Shown: positions 4,263-17,952 of the stretch, piece after piece | How the letters are laid out: each line of letters opens with the position of its first letter | Numbering within the stretch: position 1 is the first letter of the stretch | Assembly: GCA_016858145.1 (NCBI GenBank) | Contig: JAEHOE010000064.1 | Span: forward strand, 62,001-126,000 | Source of the DNA: Edaphochlamys debaryana | Taxonomy: Eukaryota > Chlorophyta > Chlorophyceae > Chlamydomonadales | DNA length: 64,000 nt | Reading direction: 5' to 3' | Translations under genes and position numbers: made by a program | Notes under the pieces: generated by a model | Database searches by the model: none | What the model saw: the letters and a program-made list of their open reading frames with translations, nothing else | Told to the model about the DNA's origin: nothing

Positions 4263-7200
4263 ATGCCCCCGCCCCCCGGCCCCGGGCCCGGCCCGCCGCC
4301 CTGCACGCCGCCAGGCCTCCGCGTGCTGGCCCTTGTAGCGACGTGCGATCGCCCGGGCCTGCTGTGGCGGCGTTGCGTGCCGTCCATCCTGGCGCAGGAG
4401 CGCCTTCCGGACGCCGTCATCCTGGTGGACGATTCGAGGGTGAGCGGGGCAGGGTGGGGGCTCGAAGGGGGCGAGCAAGAGGAGGATTGAGGTGGGGCTG
4501 GCGGCAGGGAGCGACAGCTGGGGGGTACGGGTCAGGGCGCAGGGGCGGTTGAAGGGAGGGAAGCTCTGTCCCCGAAAGCGGTGTGGGCCGCCGCCGAGCG
4601 CGCTGCTCTACACCGACACCCCACGAGCCACGACCCCACCCCACGACCGCACCCCACATTGCAGGACCCCCACAACGCTGGCGTCAACGGCAGCCACGCC
4701 GCCATGCACAACCACCTCTCGGCCGCCGCGGCCTCGCCGCCGCCACCAGACGGCGCCAGCGCCAACAGCGGCTGCCCCCTCCCCTCCCCCCAATTCCCCC
4801 ACCATTCCAACCCGCCCCGTCTGACACCCCACCACCGCACCGGGCGCCCCCTGCCGCCCATCCGCTACCTACCCAACGCACTCACGCGCGGCGCCAGCGG
4901 CTGTTGGAACACGGGCCTGCTGGCCGCCTGCGAGGGGGCGCTGGAGCGGGCCCTAGGGGGCGCCCTGGAGGACGGAGCGGCGGAGGGAGGCGGCGGCGGA
5001 GGCGGCGGAGGCGATGGAAGTGGAGGGAGGGAAGGAGGGGGCTGCGAGGGTCTGTACGGGGCTCTGGAGGACACGTGGATAGCCGTGCTAGGTGAGGTTG
5101 GAGGGACTACCGGCGCGTTATCAAGGCCACCCCTTGGTCGCCGCCCCCGCCGCCACACCCATGCCGGTCGCTCGTCATCTCAACTTTTCCTCCCCTCGTC
5201 TTTGTCCCCTCCGACCACCCCCTGCCCCCCGCCTCCATGCCCCCACCCCCCCTGCCCCCCTCCTACCCCCCCCCTACCCCCCCCCCTCCATGCCCCCACC
5301 CCCTACCCCAGACGATGATGACGCATGGGCGCCAGACCACCTCAGCCGCTGCGTGGCGGAGCTCCAGCGGCGGGGCCCCGGGGCAGCGGACCTGGGCCCG
5401 GCGGGGCCCGCGCTGGGCCCTAGTACTGCCGATGTGGGCCCGGCGGGGCCCGGCCTGGACTTGGTGGTTTGTGGCCTGGCCCGTGTGGACTCAGATGACG
5501 GCAGCGGCGCCCTGGGGGGGCAGAGCTCCCAGATCGGAGGGGATCCGGGGGCGGAAGCTGGGGAGAAGCTGCCGGGCCGTGTGCCGGCCGACGGTGCGGC
5601 CACGGGCCTGGGCGTGGCTCGCCTGCTGGTCCCCTCCCTGGAGGGGCCGCTGCAGCCGGGGCCCTTCCTGCGGGGAAACCCCGGGCTGCAGGTGGGGTCA
5701 GGCTGCGAGCCCGTTCCTCGGCAGTGGTGCTTCTGCAAAGCATGCGCCACAGCCCATGAATGACCGCCTTGCGCAGCTCTCGCACGGTTCTGACCGCTCC
5801 CCTCCGCCTCCTGCCCATGCAGGGCTCCAACCTGTTTGCCCGCTTGGGCGGGCCCCGCGGGATGCTGGCGGCGGGGGGCTTCGACGAGTGGCTCCCGTCC
5901 ACCACCGACCGGTGCGCAGCCCTGAGTTCCGGGAGTCTCCGGCGCTCGCCCACTCTCTTCGCGTACACTGGATGCATGCTCCCCAGAGCTGTCAACCCTA
6001 ACAGCGAACCCGGCCGAGCGACCGCTCTAGCAAACCCCCATCCTCCCCCGAAGAACCCCACATCCTCCCCTTCCTTGCAAACCCCCTTGCACTCCCCAGG
6101 GACCTGGGCGTCCGCCTGGCCCTCGTGGGGGCCCGCGCCGCCAGCACAGGCCTCGCCACCGTCTGGCACTTCGCACCCGGTGTCACCCCCTCACCCCCGC
6201 CGCCCGCGCCTCCCACCTCCACCCAGCGCAGCCTTTCCTCGCCGTCGACAGCCAACAAGCCGTTGCAGCTGCCGCCGCCGCCGCCACCGCCCCCGAGCCG
6301 GCCCCGCCTGTCCCTCCCCGCCAGCCCCGCCAAGGCCCTGGGGCTGAGGCGCTTCCTGGCCAAGTGGGGCCCCGACATGTCCCCCGACGAAGCCGCTGCC
6401 TTCAGAAAGCGGGCGGCCGACGTGTTCGGGGTCCACCTTGGCGCCGCTGACGACGCTGGCGCCGATCTGGGATCGCTGTTCGGGAGAGAGCGGACGGCGG
6501 CGAGCCGATGCAGCGGCGCGCGCTCCGGCTGTATCCCTGCCGGCCGTCAAACGCAGCACGGCGAGACGGGTGCCGCGGATGCTGCCAGCACGCAAGTGAC
6601 AACCGCGCCTCCGCCCTCCCCGCTGCTGCCCCCCGTGGTACTGGTGGCTGGCTTCGCCTCCCAAGACCCCGCCCACGCCGCCGCCCTGCTCTCCGACCTG
6701 CTCGACCTCGCCCGGGCCAGCGGCGCCGCGGGCCCGGCGGCCAGCGGCAGCGGCGGCGGCGGCGGTGGCAGCGGCAGCCGCGACCACGGCAGTAGCAGCG
6801 GCGCCGCGGGCCCAGAATCCATTGGCGGCGGCGGCGGTGGCAGGTCGCCGCTGGGCGGTCTGGCGGTGCTGGTGCTGGACAACGGCGGCGGCGGGGCGCT
6901 GCGGGCGGCGGTGCAGCGGCACCGCGACGCGGGGCTGCAGGTGGTGCTGCTGGGCAGGGGGCGCTTGCGGCGGCTGGCGGAGGCCTTGCTGCGCGAGCAC
7001 GAGCCCGCCGCCGCCGCCGCCGCTGCAGCCGTGAACCCTGCTAGCGGCGGCTCGGCAGCGGCGACCCCTGCATCCTCTCCTTCCGCCGCGCCTCCGCTCC
7101 TGCCCCTGGACCTCGCGCGCCTGCTGCTGGCCTCCCCGCCCAACAAACCCGCCGCCGCCGACGACAACGACGTTGACGACGGCGACGGCGCCGCTCCGCC

Positions 7201-10200
7201 GCTGCCCATCGGCGCCGCCCGCACTCTGCTGCAGCACGCCCTGGCCGCCTTCGCCGCCTCGCAGCTGCCGCCCTGCCTGCAGCCCATGGTGGTGGCATGG
7301 GTGCTGGACGACGACAAGCGCCTGCCGCGGAGGGGCGTGCCCGTGGGCACGCCCGGCCTCACCCCCACGCCCGCTCCTTCCGGCGGGTTTGCTGCAGAGG
7401 GGCGCTCCGGCCATGCGGGCAGCGGAGCGGATCCGTATCCGCAGCCGCAGCCGCCCCCAGATACGGCCTTCCTGCGGCGGCTGCAGGAGCTGCGGGCGGG
7501 GCCCAGCCCCCCGGCCGTGGTCCTGGGGACGGACCTGGGCGCGCCGCCGCGCCCCGCCGCCTGCCTGCGCCTGGGCCTGCTCGACCTCACCACGGCACTG
7601 CGCCGCCGCCTGCTGCGCGCAGCGGAGGGCGCCGGCGAGCGGGTGCGAGACGGTGCAGCGGCGGCGGAAGCTGAAGCGGCGGAAGCTGAGTCATCAGCGG
7701 CGGCGGGCTTCAACGCAGCGGCCAAGGCGGCCTGGAGCGACCACTATTACGATCTCTCGACGGCGCACACCGACCACTTGGAGGTGCCCTTACTCATGCC
7801 GCTAGAGCCGAGCCAGGAAACCGGCGGCGGCGGCGGTGCTGGCGGCGGCGGCGCTGACGGCGGCGGCAGGGGTTTGCAGGCGCTGGCGGAGGCGGCCGAG
7901 GCGGTTCTGGCGGGGGCGCCGTTCCTGCGCGACCTCGTCGGCCCGCCGCCTTCCCCGCAACTACCCCAACCACCAACCGCCAACCACCAACCGCCCCAGC
8001 CCACCATCGAGCGCGGCGGCAGCGCCTTCTTCCTAGACCTGCGGGCGCTGCGGGTGCCGCAGCACGCCTTCGCCTGCCGACGATCCGACTTCCTGCACTC
8101 CCTCGCCCTGGCGGCGGCGGGGCGGGCCGTGGTGCGGTGCGCCGACCTGGGCCTCCTGCACAGCCGCCCGACGCGACCCGGCCGCATCCAGCCCGTGTCG
8201 AGCCCGCATGCACCCGCCTTGACCCTGACCTCCCCCTCAGAGAGCGAGGATGGCACCGCATCATCTGCGAGTCAAGCCGCCGGGTTCGGTTCTGCACCTC
8301 CCCACGCACCACTACCGGCCTCCTCGTCACCCGCATCGCCCTCTCAGGCTAGCTCGCCCCACCGCCTGCTGCCGCCGCTTCTTGCCAAGCTGGTAGGCGA
8401 CTGCGAGGGCCACGCGCTGTACCGGGCGCTTCAGGAAACCCTGGCGGCGCCTCTGCGGCAGCCCTTACCCGCCTTTGGCACTGCCGCCGAGGGCCGTATG
8501 CTGGCGGCCTTCCAGGCCCACCTGCGGCGGCGCTCGCTACAGGTGCTGCGGTCGTACTGCCGTACGGTGGGCCTGCTGGGGCACCTGCGGGGCCTGCTGG
8601 GCGGCCGCCAGGCGGCGGAGGCGGCGCGGGCCTGCGCTGAGGCCGCGGCGGCGTTGCAGACGCTCGAGGCGTGCTGCGCGGAATTGGAGGGCGTCTACAC
8701 AGGTGAGGAGGCTCCAAGAATGTGCGCGTCTGCATGCACATCTGTCGTAGCAGAGACCCCCTGACGTTGTGTGCGCACCGTAGCGACGCGGGGCTGCAGA
8801 GCGAGTGCAGACGTATAGCTCAGCTGGCGTTCCTCCCGGTGCAGGGCCCCATCTGGGTCGGCTCATGGCGGCCCTGCAGCAGCGGGACGAGGCGGCGGAC
8901 GGAGCGACCGTGCGGGCAGTGCTGCGGCAGGTGGGGCGGAGGGAGGGGCGGGTACCGTCTAGCCTCCTGTCGTGGAGGTGCCGTTGACCGCGGGGTCTGG
9001 ACGGGTCGTTGTCGTATTACCTGACGTTTGCCACACCCCAACTCTCGATCCCTATCCATCGCCGCAGCTGGAGGCCGGGGTGCAAGTCTTCCAGCCCCCC
9101 AAGCCGCCGCCCGTCCACGCACCGCCCAAGCCACGAGGAGACGCAGTGAGGGCCGCCCGTCCCGCACCGCCCATCACGACCGCCGCCCCCTCCGCCTCTG
9201 CCAGCTCCCTCCCAGCCGCCGCTGCCCTCCATCCCGCCACATCCTCTCCTGCCTCCGCCTCCACCGCCCCCGACCCGCCCCCGACCCCAACCCCGGCCCA
9301 GCTCCTGGACGGATGGTTCCAAGAGGCGGCGGAGGGCTGGGCCCGGGCAGCTGTCGTACGCCTGGGCCTGGCTGGGCCCGGCGCGGGCCCGGGTTGCCCG
9401 CCGCCGGAGCTCCTGGAGTGCCTGGGACGGGGCCAGGAGGGGGTGGTCGTCTCCACGTGCCGCCCCGGGTCCCTCATGTTCAAGCACATGCCCTGGGCCG
9501 CGGCACGGCTGGCCCTGCTGCCGCCCGGGCGGGCGGAGTTCCTGCGGCGCCTGCCAGAGCTGCTGCCCGGGTGGGGACGGGTTCAAGGAACGGGTCCGAG
9601 GGACTGTCACTGCCGGGGTCCTCTCCCTGAGCCCCTCATCCCCGAGCCAACGCTGCCTTGTGACTGGTGCTCCGCCACCCCTGCCCCCAGGCCCTCCCAC
9701 ACCCTGTACGGCGTATCGTCATGGTCGGAGGAGGGGCCCGCAGCGCTGGTGGCGTATGGGCCTTACGAGGGCGGCGGGACCGTGCTGAGCAGGTGGGGCC
9801 TGCCTGGGCCTCGGAGGACTTGGTTGGGCCCAGGCAATTGCGCGTTCAGAGGGTTGCCCGATCCTTCTCCTCTCTACAACCCCCCCCCTTGCTGAACCCT
9901 CCATCCACCCATTGCCGCGCCCTCCCCACGCAGCGTCACCTCCGATCTGGGTGCCGATGGTCGCGGCTGCATGTGCGAGGGCCGCCTGCTGCTGCTGCTG
10001 GCCCGCGAGGCGCTGGCGCGGGGACTGGTGCTGGAGAACGTGAACCCGAGCAACCTCCTGCTCCTTCCGCCCGCGCTACCGCTGCCGCCGGGGCCGGGCG
10101 TGGATCTCGTGAGCAGCCGAGCGGCCGGGTCCGTCCAGGCGTCTGGAGGGGGCCAGGCGACTCGACACATTCAGTGCTCTTACTCCCGGCTGCGGTTCAT

Positions 10201-13200
10201 CGATGTGGGGGTGGACTGGGCGCCCGCGGAGGACCCACTGGACACGGACCGGTAAGGGGGTGTCGGCACGTCGTATAACGGTAGCAGTATCGATAGTCCT
10301 GGGCTCCTTCGGGGCGTTATCGACCGCAAGTGCAGCGGGGTTGATGGTACAGATCTGGCATGTCGTCTTGCGCCGTCGTGCGCACCCCACAGCCCCACCC
10401 CTAGGGGCGCAGGCCTCGTACAAACCTCACGCCCCAGACCTCACTCCCTTTGCCCCTAACCCGGCGGCAGGATGCTCCGGCGCCTCTTCATCTGCTGGCG
10501 CTGGTGGCGGCGCGAGGATCTGCCGTACCTACTGCGGGCCTCCCTGGAGCCCTCGGCGGACACGACCATGCCCGAGCTGGCGGGCTTTGCGCGCTTCCGG
10601 GTGCGTGCGCGCGTTCTCTCTGATGCTTCTTGCCTGCGCCCTCCCAACAGACAAGTCTCAATTTATCAAGCCTCCCTGACATCTATGACTCTACCGTATC
10701 TGCCTGTGTTCGGCCCTGCAGACGGCTGTGCACGGCGCCTTCGACGGGCCCGAGGCCTCCCTACAGCCGCTGCTGGCGGAGGGGGTGCGGAGGGCGCTGG
10801 CGCGGGTTCCACAGGGCCATCCAGCGGCAGGTGCGTCCTTGCATGCGTAATCGCACTCTGCGCTCACCCCACTTGACCGCAATCTCTCGTCATCTCCACC
10901 ACTCCTTATGACCAGCGCAAGCGTCCTCTTCCCGCACTTCCCACGCTCTTTCCTCTGCACCTGTATCCCGCCCGATCTTCCTATGCCGTGCAGCAGTTCC
11001 AATTCTCCACCCCTTACCCGCCGCCCCTGCGCGCCCCCAGTTCTGGACTACGGGGCCGGCAGCGGCAAGCTTCTGGCCCGCCTCTCTCGCGACCTGCCTC
11101 CCCCGGGGTCATCAGCAGGGGAGCAGCTGCTCCCCCACCCCTCCCCCCTGCAGGGGCAGCAGGGGGAGCAGGGGGAGCAGCGGGATCAGGGGGAGGAGGC
11201 CAGTAGGCGGGGGGTGGCCCTGGTGGGCTATGACCCCCTGGTCCCCAGCCCCAGGCACTGGCACGAGCACCGCCCGGGGGCACGCGAGGGAGCGGCCTGG
11301 ACCACGGATGGAGAGGAGGCGGTTCGCATGCACGTGAGTCTTCGGGGGGGAGGAGTCACTCGGAGGAGTCACCTCGTTGCCCTAACGATGCGTGCAGCCC
11401 TTTTCCCAATCTTCCAACATTTTCTTTTGCGGCCCAAGTTTCTCGCAACTCATCTTCCTGCTATCTCCCCTTTCCTCCGCAACCCCCCTCAGGAGTACGA
11501 CGTCGTTGTCTGCTCCCTCGTGCTGTGCGTGCTGAGCGATGCGGCAGAGTACGGCACCGTCGTACGACACCTGGCCGAGGCGTTGAAACCACCATCTGCA
11601 GGGGCGGGGGGGCGGGACGGGGAGGGCGGCACGCTGCTCCTGGCCGTGTGCCACCCCTCCTTCAGCCGTGAGGAGGGCGGCACCGTACTCCAGGCCCGCC
11701 AGCTGCCCGCTGCGGAGGCAGCGGCAGCCAGGGTGCCCACCACAGCAGCCGCGCTCACGGCGGCGGCGGGGACGACTGACGGCAAGGAGATCATGTACGG
11801 AGAGGGGAGCTTGAGCGAGGGCGAGGGCGCGGGGAAGGCTGACGGTCAGGGGAGCTCTTGCGGAGACGGGATCGCGGCCGAGGGTGAGGGCGAGGGAGGG
11901 CTCTCCTCCGGCCTTCGGTCGTTCGTGTGGACCAAGCGCCTCAGGTGCTGGCCCCGCGGCAGCCACCATACCTGCCATCGCCCTGACGGCGCGTCAGCAG
12001 AGGACGCGGTGGAGGCGGCGGCGGACGGGTCCGGCAGCGGCGGTGCGGTGCGGTGCGACGTGCACCGGCCGCTGGGGGCGCTGCTGGTGCACCTGGCCCG
12101 GGTGGGGCTGAGGCTCGTGAGGTGAGTGGGGGTACCGGAGGAAGCCTTGGTGTGGAACCGTTGTTGATCCGGTGATCCGATGATCCAATGATCCGGTGAG
12201 TCACGCTGTGGTCTCCGCTGCTCCCCAAACCCACTCTCAGGTTGCAGCAGACGGACTCGCTCAACCCCGCCTTCCTGGACCAGCCCGCCTCCGACTTCCT
12301 CATCCTCACGCTGCGCCGAGTGGGCACCCCGCCGCCGCCGCCCCTGCCGTATGCCCTGCCGCACCCGGCTTGTGTCGGCGGCGGCACGTGCTCCCGAGCC
12401 TCGCTCGGCCCCTCCCCCGTGGCGGCCCTCCCCCCTCCCCATGCCCCCCGTGTCCCCCCCGGTGCCCCCCCCTCTGTCCCCCGTGTGGCGCTCATGATCA
12501 AGGCCTGCGCACAGGATGCCGACCGCCTGGAGCAGCAGGTGCGGGGCAGGATCCTGCTGGATCCATGGAATCTGGATCTGAGCCCTCACCATCATCGGCA
12601 ACCACGCGCCCTCCACCTGTCCCCTGGCTCTGGGGCACATCAGCCTGGTCACACGTACCTGTACCCAAGCCCGCCCATCCACCCACCCCACCGCACAGGT
12701 GCTCCACCTGCTCTGCCAACTGCCAAGCGAAGCGCCAACGCAGCCTCCACCTGTCTCCCTGCCCTTGGCCCTTGTCTGCCTACCACACGGCAGGCGCCCG
12801 TGCCCTCCTTTCACCCCACCCCCATCCACCCCCTACTCCACCACGCAGGTGCTCCACCTGCTCTCCGCCCTGTGCGACCCCGCCCTCCCCTTCTGCGCCC
12901 TGGTGGTGTGCGCCGACCCTCGCGAGGGGCCCTTCACGCGGCCCTACGGCCGCCCCAACGCGGCCCGCATGCGGCGCGTGCTGTCCGGGCTGGCGGCGGC
13001 GGGGCTGGTGGACGAGGTGTTCTGGGGCAGCGATGGCGGGGCGGAGGAGCTGGCGGAAGTCAACGAGAGGTGGGTGGGATGGGAAAAGGGAAGGGAGGAG
13101 GTTCGGCGCACGGCGCATGAGAAGAGTGTTGGGGTGGAAGGTAGACGTGAGTGGTTGGCAAGGAAGACCACGTACCACCTGCTGCAGGGTCTCGATCGGG

Positions 13201-16200
13201 TCGGGGCACGCAAGGGAGAGGAGAAGGGTCGGGGCATGACAAGCGCATGGGGCTACCAGGTAGACGTGGTAAGCAAGACCGCAAGACCACCTCGTGCTGC
13301 CGGTTCCACGCTTGGCAGGTGGTTCGGCCTGGCCCGCTGCCGCCACTCCCACACAGCCGAGGGGGTCACCGTGACTCCCACCCTCCAGGTGCGCTTGGAG
13401 TGGGTGGGAGCTGTGACGGTGCCCGAGTGCACCCTTGACACAACCCGGCTCGGCACAGACTTGTTTTGGCCTCGCTCTGCTGTCTCCGTACAGGCTTTCA
13501 CTGAACGGTCTTAGTTCCTCACCTTCCGCCCCGTGTGCCCACCCTCACTATCATTCGCCACCCTTCCCCATCAGTGCCTGGAGTACCTGGCACGCGCTCA
13601 CGCGGCGGAGGCGGTGCTGCAGCTGGACTGCGACCTGCTCGTGCACCGGCCCCACGGGGCTGCCGTGGAGGCGGCAGGCGGCTACGACCTGGGGCATGAT
13701 AGCAGCGACGAGTGTGGGGGCGGCGGCGAGGCGGCGGCATCGCACGCGGCAGCAGGGGGGACAGGAGGTCCGTGTGCCATGGCGGCGGCGTTCGGACTGG
13801 CGGGGGGCCGCAGCGGCGGAGGCGGCGGAAAGGCGGTCGGCACGGTGTGCGGTGCTGCCGGCAGCAGCTACCTGGCGACCATGCTGGGCGTGCTGAGGTC
13901 CGACCCCGCCACCGTCACGGTCGCACTGGACGCGCCGCCGCCGCCGGCCCAACCGCGTGGCGGTGCTCTTTGGCCGCCGCCGCCACCCACGTTCTGCGGC
14001 CCCGAGGGCCCCTGGAGGGTCGAGGTCCGCGTCTGCCTGCTGCACCTGCCCCGCCTATTCGCCCTGCTCCCGCTGCCCTCCGCCGCCACCTCTTCAGCAG
14101 CCTTCCCTTCCTCAGCACTCCCACCCCAAGCGGCTCCCGCCTCCACTGCCTCCACCCCACCCGGCGGCAGCGGCCCCCACCCGCACCCGCACCCGCCCCG
14201 CTGGTACCGCGCCCTGGACGCCGCCATCGCCGCCTCCCGCGGCCGCCTGCGCTCCTACCGGGGCGCCTGCTGGCCCCTCCTGGCGGTGCTACACCCCCCG
14301 AATGCGACCGTCAAGGCCCCCGCGGCGGCTGCCCGCGGACCCCTCATGGGACCGGTGCATCCATCCAACCTTCGCTCCACGACTGCTGCCGCAGAGCCGG
14401 CTGACCTCAGTGTTGTCGCCGAGAACTCAGAAGGGCCTGCGGCCGGCGAGGCCCCGCGGCTGGGCCCGGGTGGGACTATCGTGGGCTCGGGCCCGGGCCC
14501 GGGCCCTGGCGGCGCCTCTGGGCTGCACGCCGGGGCCCTCTGGGACCTGCTCTACGCCGCAGCGGCCCACAGCGGCGGCGGCGGCGGCGGCGGCGACGGC
14601 AACAACGGTGTTGTTGGCAGCCTCGGTTGTGGCAGTGGTGGCAACGGTGGTGGTGGCGGTGGCGGCGGGGTCGGAGGCGGAGGCGGTGGCGGCGGAGGTG
14701 GCAGCGGAGGCGGCGGTGGCGGCGGCGGCGGCGGCGGCCCCAGGGTCTGCTGGCCTTCCTGCCAGGCGGGGGTTATGGATGTGGCGGGGGGCGCGGAGGC
14801 CTGGGCGGCGGCGCTGGGCCGCGGCGAGGAGGCTGTGGTGGTGGTGGTGGGGCGGGGGGTGGCCCCAGGCAAGCTGGGCCGCTGCATCGAGTCGCTGGCC
14901 CTGCAGGTGAGGCGCGGGCGGCGGGGCCGGGTGGGCAATCCGCTGCTTGCTTGCACCTTCGCTCCCTTAGAACCGGCCGGCTCTCCGCCGCATCTACGTT
15001 TCCCCGCCGGCCTACACGAGCAGCCCTTCACACATCACCCGCTACCATGCCCCTTGCCGCTGCTTGCTTGCACGCAGCTCCGCTCGGGGCGCATCATATC
15101 ACTCAAGCCAACCCTGACCTTTGCCCTGCGGCGCCCTGACCCCACAGGACGTCGAGCCGGAGCGTGTGGGGCTCATTGTCATCGATGACGCTTCCGAGGG
15201 GTGGCGGGGGGACGCCGCGGAGCTGTGCTGCCGCCTGCTGCTGCCGCCCGCGTGGCGCCGGCGGCTGAGCTTCGTGAGGTGCGTACGTTGGGCCGCAGGA
15301 ATGGGAGAGCAAGCAAGGGATAAGGGTTGAACGCAAACCCGCATGACGCCTGCGGGTGCAGACTCTTCTCGGAGAAGACGGCTCACAGCTCTGACGGGAC
15401 CCGTCCCAATCGCAGGATGAGCGCTCGGAGGGGCATGCTGGCGAACCTTGATCTCGTGAGGCACTGGCAGGAGCTTGGGGCTTCCGGGCTTGTACAAGTC
15501 CCCCCTGCCGCCAACTCTAATGTTGCTCAGCACCGGCTTGAGTCCGTCGTACCGTCGTCCGGCACCGCTTCCAGTCTTTGTGCCTCCATAAGTAGCCTCC
15601 CAGTCTGGGTTGCGGGGAGGCGCTGTGCTCGATTGTCGGGTTGGTTTCGCGGCTGGCAGGCGTTACGCCGTTGCTCTGTTCCTCGGCTACTCACCCCCCT
15701 TACTCCTCCACCCGCCCGCCCACCAGGCCATCCGCCACATGGTCCTCGACCCGGCCGCCGTGGTCGTAACCCTGGACGCCGATGACGCCCTGGCGGCGCC
15801 GGGGGCCCTGCGGGAGGTCCTGGGGGCGCACCGGGCGGGGCACGACCTGGTGTTCGGGGGACAGCTGCGGACGGACCGGGCCCAGGACCCGAGGCAGAGG
15901 TGCGTGTGGGTTAGGCGCTGTGGAGCATGGGGCCAGTACGGATTCGGATCCGGAATCCTGAATCTGGATCTGGCCTACCTGGCCTATCTGCCTGTTCGGT
16001 TTTCGCCCCCCCCCCCACCCGTGTGCGTGCAGCGGCTACGGCACGGGCGGCATTGTGCTGGCGGGCCCTGCGCGGCAGCGGGCGCTGCGGGGCGGCGGCG
16101 AGGTGTGGCGGCACCTGCGCTCCTTCCGGCAGCGGCTGTGGGCCGCCATCCGTCAGGAGCACCTGATTGACCCGGTGGGGTTGGGGCGGGAGCTTGGAGG

Positions 16201-17952
16201 AGGGGGGTGCACGAAGGGATATAGGGTGGGTGGGCAGCAAGACTCAAGGACCAGCGACCATGTGACCAGGGCGTTTGCAGTAGGGGCCAGACCACCTACC
16301 TTGCCCGATGTCCATGGGATCCCACCCGCAGACCACCGGATGGTTCTGGGAGCGGTCCAATGACTGGTGAGGAGGGACTCGGAGGCAGGGGGGGCTAGGG
16401 TTTGAGGGATTGGGGCAACGGGCGAATCACTCCACGACCGTCCTACCACCCCCCTGCACCCATCCACCTGCTCCTCCATCCAAGCCCCTTGACCCAACCA
16501 CCCTCCCACCCGCCAGGGCCTACATGCTCCCCATCGCCGAGATGAGCCGCCGCCCCCGCCTCATCCCCCGCCCGCTCTACCTGTACGAGCCCTCGCGCCG
16601 CTCCTGGCCGGACCCCGCGGCCCGCGTCGCCCGCGAGGCCAGCATCGGCCGTGTGGTGGCGCTGCCGCCCTACTGCCCGGACCACGGGGGGCCCTCCACG
16701 GAGTGTTTCCTCGGCGGTGGTGGCCCGGGTTTGGGGCTGGAGCCGGGGACTGGGGGAGGAGGGGGAGGAGGGGGAGGAGGGGGAGGAGGGGGAGGAGGGG
16801 GAGGAGGAGGAGGAGGAGGCGGGCCGTGCTGGGCGGCGCTGGGGCGGCGGGCGGTGGTGGCGGTGGTGGGGGACGCCAACCTGGGCCCAGGGGTGGAGCG
16901 GGTGGCGGACAGGGAGCGCAAGGCGGAGGTGGCGTTCGAGGTGCGTGGGTGCGTGGGTGCGTGGGTTCCAGCCGAGGGTTCACCCCGGCGCCGGGGTTGA
17001 TCCATCCGTGAAGCCTGCGAGGAGCGGTCAGAGATGGAGGCTCGATCGGTGTCCGCTCAGGTGTCCGAGTGGCTAGCACCCTGCCCGTCCGCTGCAACTA
17101 GTCTAAACACCACCTCCTTCCACCAGACCCGGTTGCACATGGCTTTAACCCCCTTGCCCCTCCCCAAACGCAGGTGGGTCGCCGCCTGGCGGACGCTGGC
17201 TGCGTGGTGCTGACGGGGGGCGAGGGCGGCGTCATGGAGGCGGCCTGCAGGGGTGCCCGCGCCTCGCCGGCCGCCGCGCGCCTCGCCATGAACTCGGCAC
17301 TGGGCGGCGGCGGCGCAGGTGGCGGCGGCGGTGGGGTGACCACGGTGGGGCTGCTGCGGAGCGGCCGCGGCGGAGCAGCGGCGGGGTGGGACACCGGAGG
17401 CGCAGCGGGCAACCGCTTTCTGGACGTGGCCATTTGCACGGGTGCGTGGGGGGCTGGGGAATGCCGTCGGGCTGGGGGATCTGTACCGGGCAAGGGTCGA
17501 GCCAGGGTAGTACGGCAGTGCATGGGTATGCTATGCAGGAACAGCTCCGCTGCCGTCGGGTACCGTACCAGCCCACTGCCTCACAACCCCGGCCTCATCC
17601 ATGCATCCTCACCTCTTTGCTTGTCCCCCCACCCTTGCCTCCAGGTCTGGGCGAGGCGCGGAACGCCCTTATCGGCACCGCCGCCGACGCACTGATCGCC
17701 ATCGGCGGCGGCGCAGGGACGCTGTCAGAGCTGGCCTTCGCCTGGGGAGGCGGCGGCGCGGCGGCGGTGGTGGTGGTGGAGGGCGTGGGGGGCAGCACGG
17801 CGGGCTACGCGGGCCAGGCGCTGGACGGTCGGCCGCCGGCGGGGCGGAGGGTGCAGGGCGCGAGGAGTGCTGAGGAGGCGGTGGGGGTGGTACTGGCGGC
17901 GCTGCGGGTGGCGGGGAGGTGGGCGCCGCCGCTCGATATAGAGCCGTTCTGA
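4263..17952 (+). CDS. Composite protein: glycosyltransferases + kinase-like + methyltransferase + LOG/SLOG
   Basis: A 25-exon model keeps one open frame of 9,288 nt (about 3,095 residues). Exons: 4263-4439, 4665-5091, 5312-5691, 5823-5911, 6100-8702, 8845-8930, 9068-9570, 9691-9792, 9934-10251, 10471-10600, 10722-10830, 11041-11333, 11493-12121, 12241-12538, 12849-13069, 13319-13388, 13575-14906, 15148-15278, 15416-15455, 15727-15899, 16033-16174, 16332-16366, 16517-16940, 17174-17441, 17645-17952. Every junction is GT..AG with matching phase, and each restores a motif. Domain order: GT2-like (~20-390), second GT-A-like (~530-1050), helical link, degenerate kinase-like (~1350-1605), class I methyltransferase (~1606-1950), GT-A-like (~2030-2330), GT2 (~2560-2800), LOG/SLOG (~2862-3095). 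Long Gly, Ala and Pro tracts interrupt the domains, as is common in these algae. No signal peptide was seen at the chosen start. Transcription as one unit is an inference; two neighbouring genes are possible. The function is unknown; glycan or glycoconjugate synthesis is the best guess. Confidence 0.75.
4290..6200 (+). other. Domain: GT2-like glycosyltransferase (GT-A fold) of the composite protein
   Basis: Exon 1 gives a strand-loop typical of GT2 enzymes, ending in VILVDDS. Exon 2 gives NTGLLAA, and the exon 2/3 junction creates AVLDDDDAW, the expected DxD metal/sugar-nucleotide site. Exon 4 adds GSNLFARLGG and exon 5 starts with LGVRLALVGAR and TVWHF. The motifs occur in family order only after splicing, which supports the intron calls. 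Donor and acceptor sugars cannot be deduced. Confidence 0.7.
6625..8170 (+). other. Domain: second GT-A-like segment of the composite protein
   Basis: Within the 2.6-kb exon 5 the order is VVLVAGFAS, LAVLVLDNGG, then IGAARTLLQ, VAWVLDDDKRL, HYYDLSTAHTDHLE and FFLDLRAL. The VLDDD run is a plausible DxD-type site, and the whole is similar in layout to bacterial glycosyltransferase-like proteins as I recall them. Poly-Gly, poly-Ala and poly-Pro inserts separate the blocks. The call is weaker than for the flanking domains and needs profile comparison. Confidence 0.45.
9300..10600 (+). other. Domain: degenerate protein-kinase-like fold of the composite protein
   Basis: Exon 7 carries a glycine-rich loop (LGRGQEGVVV) and a candidate lysine in LMFKHM. 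Exon 8 carries a hinge-like AYGPYEGG. Exon 9 has ENVNPSNLLLL where active kinases have a catalytic Asp before the Asn, then FIDVGVDW, a DVG version of DFG. Exon 10 follows with a Trp-rich helix and PELAGFARF. The Asp-to-Asn change at the catalytic loop suggests a pseudokinase or a specialised phosphotransferase. This arrangement directly before a methyltransferase resembles bacterial proteins I recall but could not check. Confidence 0.5.
10722..12121 (+). other. Domain: class I SAM-dependent methyltransferase of the composite protein
   Basis: The junction of exons 11 and 12 creates motif I, VLDYGAGSGKLL, the SAM-binding glycine loop. VGYDP follows as the acidic end of strand 2. Exon 13 gives YDVVVCSLVLCVL (motif IV region) and LLLAVCHPSF. 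These are in the normal order and spacing for a Rossmann-like methyltransferase. The substrate is unknown. The C-terminal part carries Ala/Gly/Glu-rich inserts. Confidence 0.75.
12165..12196. repeat. 8-bp tandem repeat in intron 13 of the composite gene
   Basis: Four copies of a TGATCCRR unit lie just inside the intron between exons 13 and 14. It is a simple intronic repeat with no visible function. Confidence 0.7.
12480..14300 (+). other. Domain: third GT-A-like glycosyltransferase of the composite protein
   Basis: Exon 14 ends with VALMIKACAQDADRLEQQ and exon 15 continues LLSALCDP and LVVCADPREGPF. Exon 16 gives RWFGLARC, and exon 17 gives VLQLDCDLLV with a DCD version of the DxD motif. 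WRVEVRVCLLHLPRL and RWYRALD follow. The pattern is that of a GT-A-type transferase with bacterial relatives as I recall them. A Gly-rich linker of about 60 residues (around 14570-14750) ends it. Confidence 0.6.
12660..12870 (+). repeat. Duplicated acceptor and exon start in intron 14 of the composite gene
   Basis: The true exon 15 acceptor (exon from 12849) is preceded, 150 bp upstream, by a near copy whose exon-like sequence starts at 12699. Both read CAGGTGCTCCACCTGCTCT. Because 150 is a multiple of three and no stop intervenes, use of the upstream acceptor would add 50 residues in frame. Confidence 0.7.
14760..16600 (+). other. Domain: C-terminal GT2 glycosyltransferase of the composite protein
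   Basis: Strand 1 is VVVVVGRGVAPGK with CIESLALQ, then GLIVIDDASEGW across the exon 17/18 junction. ARRGMLANL follows in exon 19, and VVVTLDADDAL in exon 20 supplies the DxD motif. Exons 21-23 give VWRHLRSFRQRLW, TGWFWERSNDW and AYMLPIAEM with LIPRPLYLYEPS. This is the standard GT2 order, and it is the best supported of the glycosyltransferase domains. Confidence 0.75.
16830..17949 (+). other. Domain: LOG/SLOG (TIGR00725-like) nucleotide-binding domain of the composite protein
   Basis: Exon 23 ends with VVAVVGDANLGPG. Exon 24 has VVLTGGEGGVMEAACRGA and NRFLDVAI, and exon 25 has GLGEARNALIGTAAD and AIGGGAGTLSELAFAWGG. The GGGxGTLSE block matches the phosphate-binding loop of lysine-decarboxylase-like (LOG) and TIGR00725 proteins, a SLOG-superfamily fold. 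LOG enzymes hydrolyse nucleotide 5'-monophosphates, and many SLOG proteins bind nucleotides as sensors. Which applies here is not visible. The domain ends at the stop at 17950-17952. Confidence 0.75.

Follow-up and report, generated by a model that had tools for sequence, protein, structure and literature searches.

A four-glycosyltransferase megagene of the green alga Edaphochlamys debaryana that probably derives from a bacterial gene and its SLOG neighbour

ORF6 of Klebsiella pneumoniae O7 carries a methyltransferase, a kinase, a spacer and two GT2-family glycosyltransferase (GT) modules on one chain, and both glycan assembly and methyl-phosphate termination are proven for it (PMC11231755). 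In WbdD of Escherichia coli O9a, a kinase and a methyltransferase act on a growing glycan (PMC3482155). Here we describe a gene that joins comparable parts in a eukaryote. It lies in a window of 64,000 nucleotides (GC 67.5%) of Edaphochlamys debaryana (contig JAEHOE010000064.1, positions 62,001 to 126,000) and encodes four GT-type domains (GT1 to GT4, in order along the chain), a helical part, a kinase-like domain, a methyltransferase and a SLOG domain. The preferred view is that a bacterial enzyme was captured together with its gene neighbour, rather than that a patchwork was built within the alga. Bacterial loci are labelled L and individual proteins P below.

By domain make-up, O7 ORF6 would be the closest proven design. 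Its order is methyltransferase, kinase, carbohydrate-binding module, coiled coil, GT, GT, whereas in the window protein the kinase-like domain precedes the methyltransferase; it has two GTs against four, a long coiled coil, and no SLOG domain. WbdD has the order methyltransferase, kinase, coiled coil, with its GTs on separate proteins, and gives a weak methyltransferase profile match to the window family. The chondroitin polymerase K4CP (2z86, 2z87; 17% identity) has its two domains placed differently relative to each other and lacks kinase, methyltransferase and SLOG domains. Much closer are bacterial megaproteins of about 1,700-2,000 amino acids (aa), for example P0132 of Salinisphaera dokdonensis and P0151 of a member of the Polyangiaceae, which share seven domains, their order and their motifs with the algal protein. 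The best bacterial rows reach about 35-36% identity to the window protein over some 1,650-1,700 columns. They differ from the algal form in having no introns, no long inserts and, where SLOG is present, a separate SLOG gene. The algal gene is laid out as follows.

4263..17952, + strand: complete coding region in 25 exons, giving 3,095 aa under the preferred model
4314..6442, + strand: GT1, GT2-family glycosyltransferase domain, exons 1-5, DDDD motif (Pfam PF00535, 1.4e-7; limits from L001 aa 19-284)
6671..8440, + strand: GT2, putative second GT-like domain, exon 5, DDD motif, no Pfam match (from L001 aa 327-688)
8447..9358, + strand: helical linker domain, exons 5-7 (from L001 aa 691-835; bacterial model mainly helix)
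9401..10588, + strand: kinase-like domain, exons 7-10, beta-Lys and DFG-Asp retained, Asn at the HRD-Asp position
10589..12325, + strand: S-adenosylmethionine-dependent methyltransferase domain, exons 10-14 (Pfam Methyltransf_23, 1.2e-6; mapping)
12482..14771, + strand: GT3, predicted GT-A-like domain, exons 14-17, DxD motif (homology, fold of the bacterial homologue, motif, mapping)
14808..16667, + strand: GT4, GT2-family domain, exons 17-23, DxDD motif (Pfam PF00535, 1.9e-7; fold of the bacterial homologue; mapping)
15416..15455, + strand: exon 19 in the preferred model; an alternative acceptor would move its start to 15362
16752..16816, + strand: 9-base tandem repeat encoding poly-Gly between GT4 and SLOG
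16833..17922, + strand: SLOG (LDcluster4) domain, exons 23-25 (Pfam PF18306, 2.4e-23; tree; mapping)

In bacteria, an alignment scan with GT3-GT4, using one genome per species, gave eight loci (Gemmatimonadota 1, Gammaproteobacteria 1, Dehalococcoidia 1, a genome titled Mesoflavibacter 1, Planctomycetota 4), and at each of them the window protein matches one long open reading frame (ORF) collinearly. Domain profiles place all seven parts, from GT1 through GT2, the helical part, the kinase-like domain and the methyltransferase to GT3 and GT4, on a single ORF in ten of the ten complete loci (L001-L007, L009, L048 and L049; L008, cut by a contig end, is not counted). The row of the window protein fills 1,700 of the 1,720 core columns, aligning end to end with this seven-part ORF. 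An earlier note on this DNA had proposed a captured and fused bacterial operon, and a search for bacterial loci with that gene order. The bacterial origin and the joining of a neighbour are supported, but the six domains and the helical part were found as one ORF already, and only the joint to SLOG is new.

The second gene of the unit was found next door. In seven of the ten complete loci the same strand carries a SLOG gene no more than 1 kb downstream; since L009 is nearly identical to L004, this amounts to six of nine independent loci. It follows immediately in L003, L005, L048 and L049, and in L005 and L048 the two genes overlap by 4 nt. In the other three loci one ORF intervenes, encoding a polysaccharide deacetylase (L002) or a methyltransferase-like protein (L004, L009), and each of these ORFs overlaps the SLOG start by 4 nt. 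A NUDIX gene between the two, suspected from the NUDIX-like N-terminus of P0005, was not found. The algal novelty is thus the joint between mega-gene and SLOG alone; the remaining parts are already joined in bacteria.

The algal gene itself is real. Its frame was rebuilt independently from splice motifs, with ATG at 4263, a stop codon ending at 17952 as the single stop, and GT-AG borders in all 24 introns, which bears out the earlier description of 25 exons and 3,095 unbroken codons. Use of the acceptor at 15362 would give a model of 3,113 aa with 18 extra residues in exon 19; the start at 15416 is likewise preceded by AG. The 3,095-aa model is preferred because the 18 residues are absent from the homologues compared (Gonium, Volvox, P0145 and three bacterial rows). 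In the longer model, about 1,714 of 3,113 residues align to the bacterial core, and low-complexity inserts make up much of the remainder. A family motif had been said to be restored at each junction. Residues of the Gonium and/or Volvox protein do align across all 24 joints, but several only weakly: the Gonium protein aligns only 4 of 20 residues across junction 17, 10 across junction 18 and 11 across junction 21, and the Volvox protein carries insertions at junctions 1, 8, 9 and 16. No second copy was found in the alga's own 141.9 Mb genome with a GT3 + GT4 query, all seven matches falling inside this gene. Intron 14 holds a direct repeat of 52 bases (12663-12714 and 12813-12864, 77%, spacing 150 bases), which copies the acceptor region of exon 15 and thus forms a decoy acceptor.

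The gene is shared with other green algae. A query with the GT4 region retrieved 76 proteins, headed by VOLCADRAFT_86249 of Volvox (2,623 aa) and GPECTOR_54g189 of Gonium (3,317 aa). Another of them is P0145, a protein of 2,161 aa that includes SLOG and is encoded without interruption on a metagenome contig of 8.1 kb. GT4 + SLOG retrieved seven proteins: Tetrabaena P0001 (328 aa), a Tetradesmus protein (826 aa, methyltransferase to SLOG), the metagenome protein P0003 (741 aa, GT3-GT4-SLOG), P0004 (427 aa, GT3-GT4), plus three further proteins with SLOG. Full-length relatives of the fusion, which was to be sought in other volvocines, therefore occur in Gonium and Volvox, although a portion of the second GT-like domain is missing from the Volvox model, and partial ones occur in Tetrabaena and Tetradesmus. 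C. reinhardtii appeared in neither search; the candidates were proteins of a set length range, so this does not show absence. The composition of P0145 (3.2% Cys, 9.3% Ser) leans towards a eukaryotic-like one, which is no proof. As to the claim that no such eukaryotic protein had been described, the search listings held no paper naming these locus tags or describing this architecture, but the Volvox and Gonium proteins were already in databases as hypothetical proteins.

Among bacteria the family is rare and patchy. In Planctomycetota at least 10 of 392 genomes carry it, several with split or short forms. For Gemmatimonadota (at least 1 of 64), the class of L003 (at least 1 of 369) and the phylum of L006 (at least 1 of 301) only the seed was found; the surveys scored the best candidates per genome, and all these counts are lower bounds. 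A profile of the bacterial ORFs retrieved 505 proteins; among the 120 listed, lengths run from 1,687 to 2,089 aa and the few named ones are called glycosyltransferase. Pfam catches only pieces of the megaproteins, and no NCBIfam model passed its cut-off for the two members scanned (L001, P0132). No carriers were found in the phage collection. From IMG/VR came a single contig, L009, with ORFs like those around the planctomycete L004, and none of 18 IMG/VR pattern matches was confirmed with the SLOG-fused alignment. A histidine-phosphatase domain (PF00300) forms the C-terminus of some megaproteins about 1,963 aa long, those of L004 (9750-10403) and L009. The C-terminal extension in L007 looked deacetylase-like by eye, and Pfam gave no match.

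The nature of the single domains is supported to different degrees. A Pfam scan on seven slices of the window protein matched PF00535 in slices 1 and 6, Methyltransf_23 in slice 4 and SLOG LDcluster4 in slice 7, and nothing in slices 2, 3 and 5 (second GT-like, kinase-like and third GT-like domain), whose putative identity comes from homology to the bacterial proteins. The claim of four GT-type domains is borne out by PF00535 for GT1 and GT4 (32.1 and 31.6 bits against a cut-off of 23.3), but the second and third have no Pfam match. For GT3, the bacterial GT3-GT4 pair has a predicted tandem, GT-A-like fold, which suggests that this domain is GT-A-like too. For the second domain, a GT nature is suggested by its conserved DDD motif together with a weak match to GT1 at profile level (28% probability). 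The kinase region gave profile matches to CK2 (E 2e-4 to 5e-4). With the predicted model of the bacterial region from GT2 to the methyltransferase, PDB fold lists were filled by methyltransferases, so that GT2 and kinase were barely probed, and a viral library returned at least two viral protein kinases (E about 1e-4). The window row carries the full motif set (DDDD, DDD, DxD, DxDD, kinase beta-Lys, Asn at HRD-Asp and DFG-Asp), and the acidic motifs of all four GTs are retained in every readable row.

Of the label LOG/SLOG given to the last domain, SLOG is right and LOG is loose: PF18306 scores 82.9 bits (cut-off 26.3), but PF03641 only 16.4 (cut-off 27). PF03641 has no match in the alga's own genome. 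TIGR00725 scores 88.8 for the window domain, under the NCBIfam cut-off of 106.9, and 116 for the bacterial SLOG partner of L002. The cytokinin-LOG model NF058542 was not among the NCBIfam matches listed for the window SLOG and reaches 26 in the L002 partner, against a cut-off of 300. The closest solved sequences are TIGR00725 proteins and a Moco carrier protein (1rcu 1.2e-12, 6y01 7.3e-10, 2iz5 4.2e-9), all small stand-alone proteins, whereas the algal SLOG is joined to a giant enzyme. An origin from the alga's own Moco carrier protein is disfavoured, as the match of the window SLOG to 2iz5 is weaker than that of the bacterial partner (L002, 1.7e-18) and the domain groups with the operon SLOGs in a tree that does not hold the carrier protein itself. 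In two other proteins a SLOG domain has a different partner, which is a polysaccharide deacetylase in P0006 and a NUDIX-type domain in P0005.

The trees are consistent with this picture. In a tree of 57 rows, from which Tetrabaena P0001 was left out for having too few columns, the window protein groups with Volvox and Gonium at 100 and with Tetradesmus at 98, and the 51 bacterial rows lie on one side of a branch with 93. In a tree of 28 rows the four algae form one clade (100/99), and the SLOG-fused rows (algae, P0145, P0003) are split from 22 bacterial rows (90/97). The SLOG tree has 27 rows, after removal of four loci that duplicated operon SLOGs. Here a group of 15 rows (82/87) unites the algal domains with the operon SLOGs of L002, L004, L005, L009, L048 and L049, and also includes P0145, P0003, P0005 and L015, which is a SLOG found where a contig of the L008 genome begins. 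Outside this group lie P0006, P0007 and nine further SLOGs from these genomes. Probably, therefore, a unit of two bacterial genes was acquired and then merged. The simplest reading is one acquisition of the pair and one fusion, both the direction of transfer and the single fusion being inferred; the fusion may have preceded or followed the transfer, according to which organisms P0145 and P0003 come from.

We therefore consider it likely that a green-algal ancestor acquired such a unit, which became one nuclear gene for a glycan assembly line. The first gene would have encoded the seven-part enzyme and the second, downstream gene a SLOG protein of the TIGR00725 type. An ancestor of these green algae would have taken up both, resulting in one protein of 3,095 aa, with 24 introns and long low-complexity inserts. 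The assembly-line function, which we infer with less certainty than the transfer direction or the single fusion, is suggested because four GT-type modules with conserved acidic motifs share one chain with a methyltransferase and a kinase-like domain, a combination reminiscent of glycan assembly proteins like O7 ORF6 and WbdD. The four GT modules would build or decorate a glycan, the methyltransferase may cap or decorate it, the atypical kinase-like domain may phosphorylate it or merely bind ATP, and the SLOG part may bind or process a nucleotide-like ligand linked to the same product. Deacetylase genes occur beside L002 and in the clusters of L045 and L046, and a deacetylase is fused to SLOG in P0006, which hints at an N-acetylated sugar.

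Several points weigh against this explanation. None of the trees is rooted, they include long rows and rows of unusual composition, and the key splits (93 and 90/97) are below maximal. L001, L006 and L007 have no adjoining SLOG gene, and the operon SLOG of L003 lies outside the 15-row clade. The second GT domain is a putative GT, backed by motif and profile rather than by fold. All 54 of 54 rows have Asn where a kinase has the HRD Asp, a position assigned by reading the motif, which makes kinase chemistry doubtful. No ABC exporter was seen next to the loci, whose neighbours were not scanned in full.

Among the alternatives, an artefact of gene model or assembly is hardly credible. The gene is very long, with GC-rich low-complexity stretches, but it has 24 GT-AG introns in a single frame, two other volvocines hold relatives with the same domain order, and a mitochondrial-carrier family gene (Pfam Mito_carr, 1259-2884) lies upstream on the same strand; artefact and contaminant were rejected on these grounds. 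It is also very improbable that the genes of an operon were fused one at a time inside the alga, as first proposed. The split arrangements in shorter bacterial relatives (L010, L011, L042-L047) would fit such a course, yet bacteria already have the full seven-part ORF to which the algae align end to end. Stepwise fusion is thereby contradicted for six of seven parts and holds for the SLOG joint, and a fusion of six separate genes inside the alga was rejected. A stronger contender, though still unlikely, is a polysaccharide synthase with a built-in chain terminator, in which kinase and methyltransferase would cap the chain end with methyl-phosphate as in WbdD and O7 ORF6. The kinase-like and methyltransferase domains are adjacent, with GT modules on both flanks, the tandem GT-A pair is polymerase-like in predicted fold, WbdD is among the weak methyltransferase profile matches (E 4e-4 to 5e-4), and O7 ORF6 does this on a single chain. 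As in WbdD/O7-type enzymes, adjacent kinase-like and methyltransferase domains thus lie on a GT-bearing chain, but the catalytic Asp is replaced throughout, the order differs, with the kinase before the methyltransferase and GTs on either side, and the helical part, about 130 residues in the bacterial model, seems short for a long coiled-coil ruler.

A different role appears improbable, namely that of a module for defence or conflict on mobile islands of bacteria, where SLOG would sense or make a nucleotide signal and the GT megaenzyme would modify a target. Five of the ten complete loci carry defence-type genes in the flanks analysed. By PADLOC or Pfam these are Avs4 and HEC-01 (L001), McrBC with an Mrr_N/AAA protein (L002), a BrxH-like helicase (L006) and PDC-S37 (L007), and by Pfam only AbiEi (L049). 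Occurrence is patchy, and two plasmid copies of relatives were inspected. On the other side, the AbiEi gene of L049 has no PADLOC match, the flanking genes of L003 and L004 named so far, by eye or Pfam, are housekeeping genes, and controls also match PADLOC models strongly (e.g., PsyrT at 9.5e-296, DpdF, PDC-S11). In a bulk PADLOC scan of flank ORFs, the 64 ORFs on the case side, from nine loci without L009, matched 48 families, and 80 control ORFs (80 of 137 ORFs, from 7 of 13 windows) matched 22, in tables that pool the families across loci. With a small control that is not clean, the link to defence is a lead, not a result. Marginally less probable again is the extended version, in which an undescribed bacterial immune or conflict module, made of a nucleotide-binding SLOG partner and a four-GT glycosylating megaenzyme with pseudokinase and methyltransferase, was captured by green algae, fused and retained in multicellular volvocines, Volvox among them.

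The shorter bacterial relatives widen the view beyond the acquired unit. They show the arrangements GT1, kinase-like, GT2 (L010, L047), GT1 plus a chain of X, kinase-like, GT3 and GT4 (L011, L042, L043), GT1, kinase-like and GT3 as single genes (L044), and GT1-GT2 (L045, L046). Genes for RibA-NADAR, asparagine synthase and polysaccharide deacetylase adjoin GT1-GT2 in L045 (7696-14169), and L046 (1353-9993) has NADAR, asparagine synthase, N-acetyltransferase and polysaccharide deacetylase genes with it. Near the latter lie FolE2, a DndB-family gene and a joined TGT-DndB gene that is DpdA-like (11252-15658). L010 (12034-18556) has genes annotated as ribA, asparagine synthase-related and N-acetyltransferase, and around L044 (3372-11691) are genes for QueC, a PTPS-family protein, several radical-SAM proteins and the HsdR subunit of a type I restriction system. 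The surroundings of L045, L046 and L010 possibly represent an unnamed biosynthetic cluster, and the genes around the shorter relatives suggest that the wider family is tied to nucleotide-derived chemistry.

These results point to a sizeable bacterial enzyme family without a known product. They also offer a clear example of two closely spaced bacterial genes, a mega-gene and its neighbour, that are seen as a single gene, with 24 introns, in a eukaryote. As Volvox and Gonium carry the gene, its function could be tested in algae, and the bacterial form could be expressed without introns.
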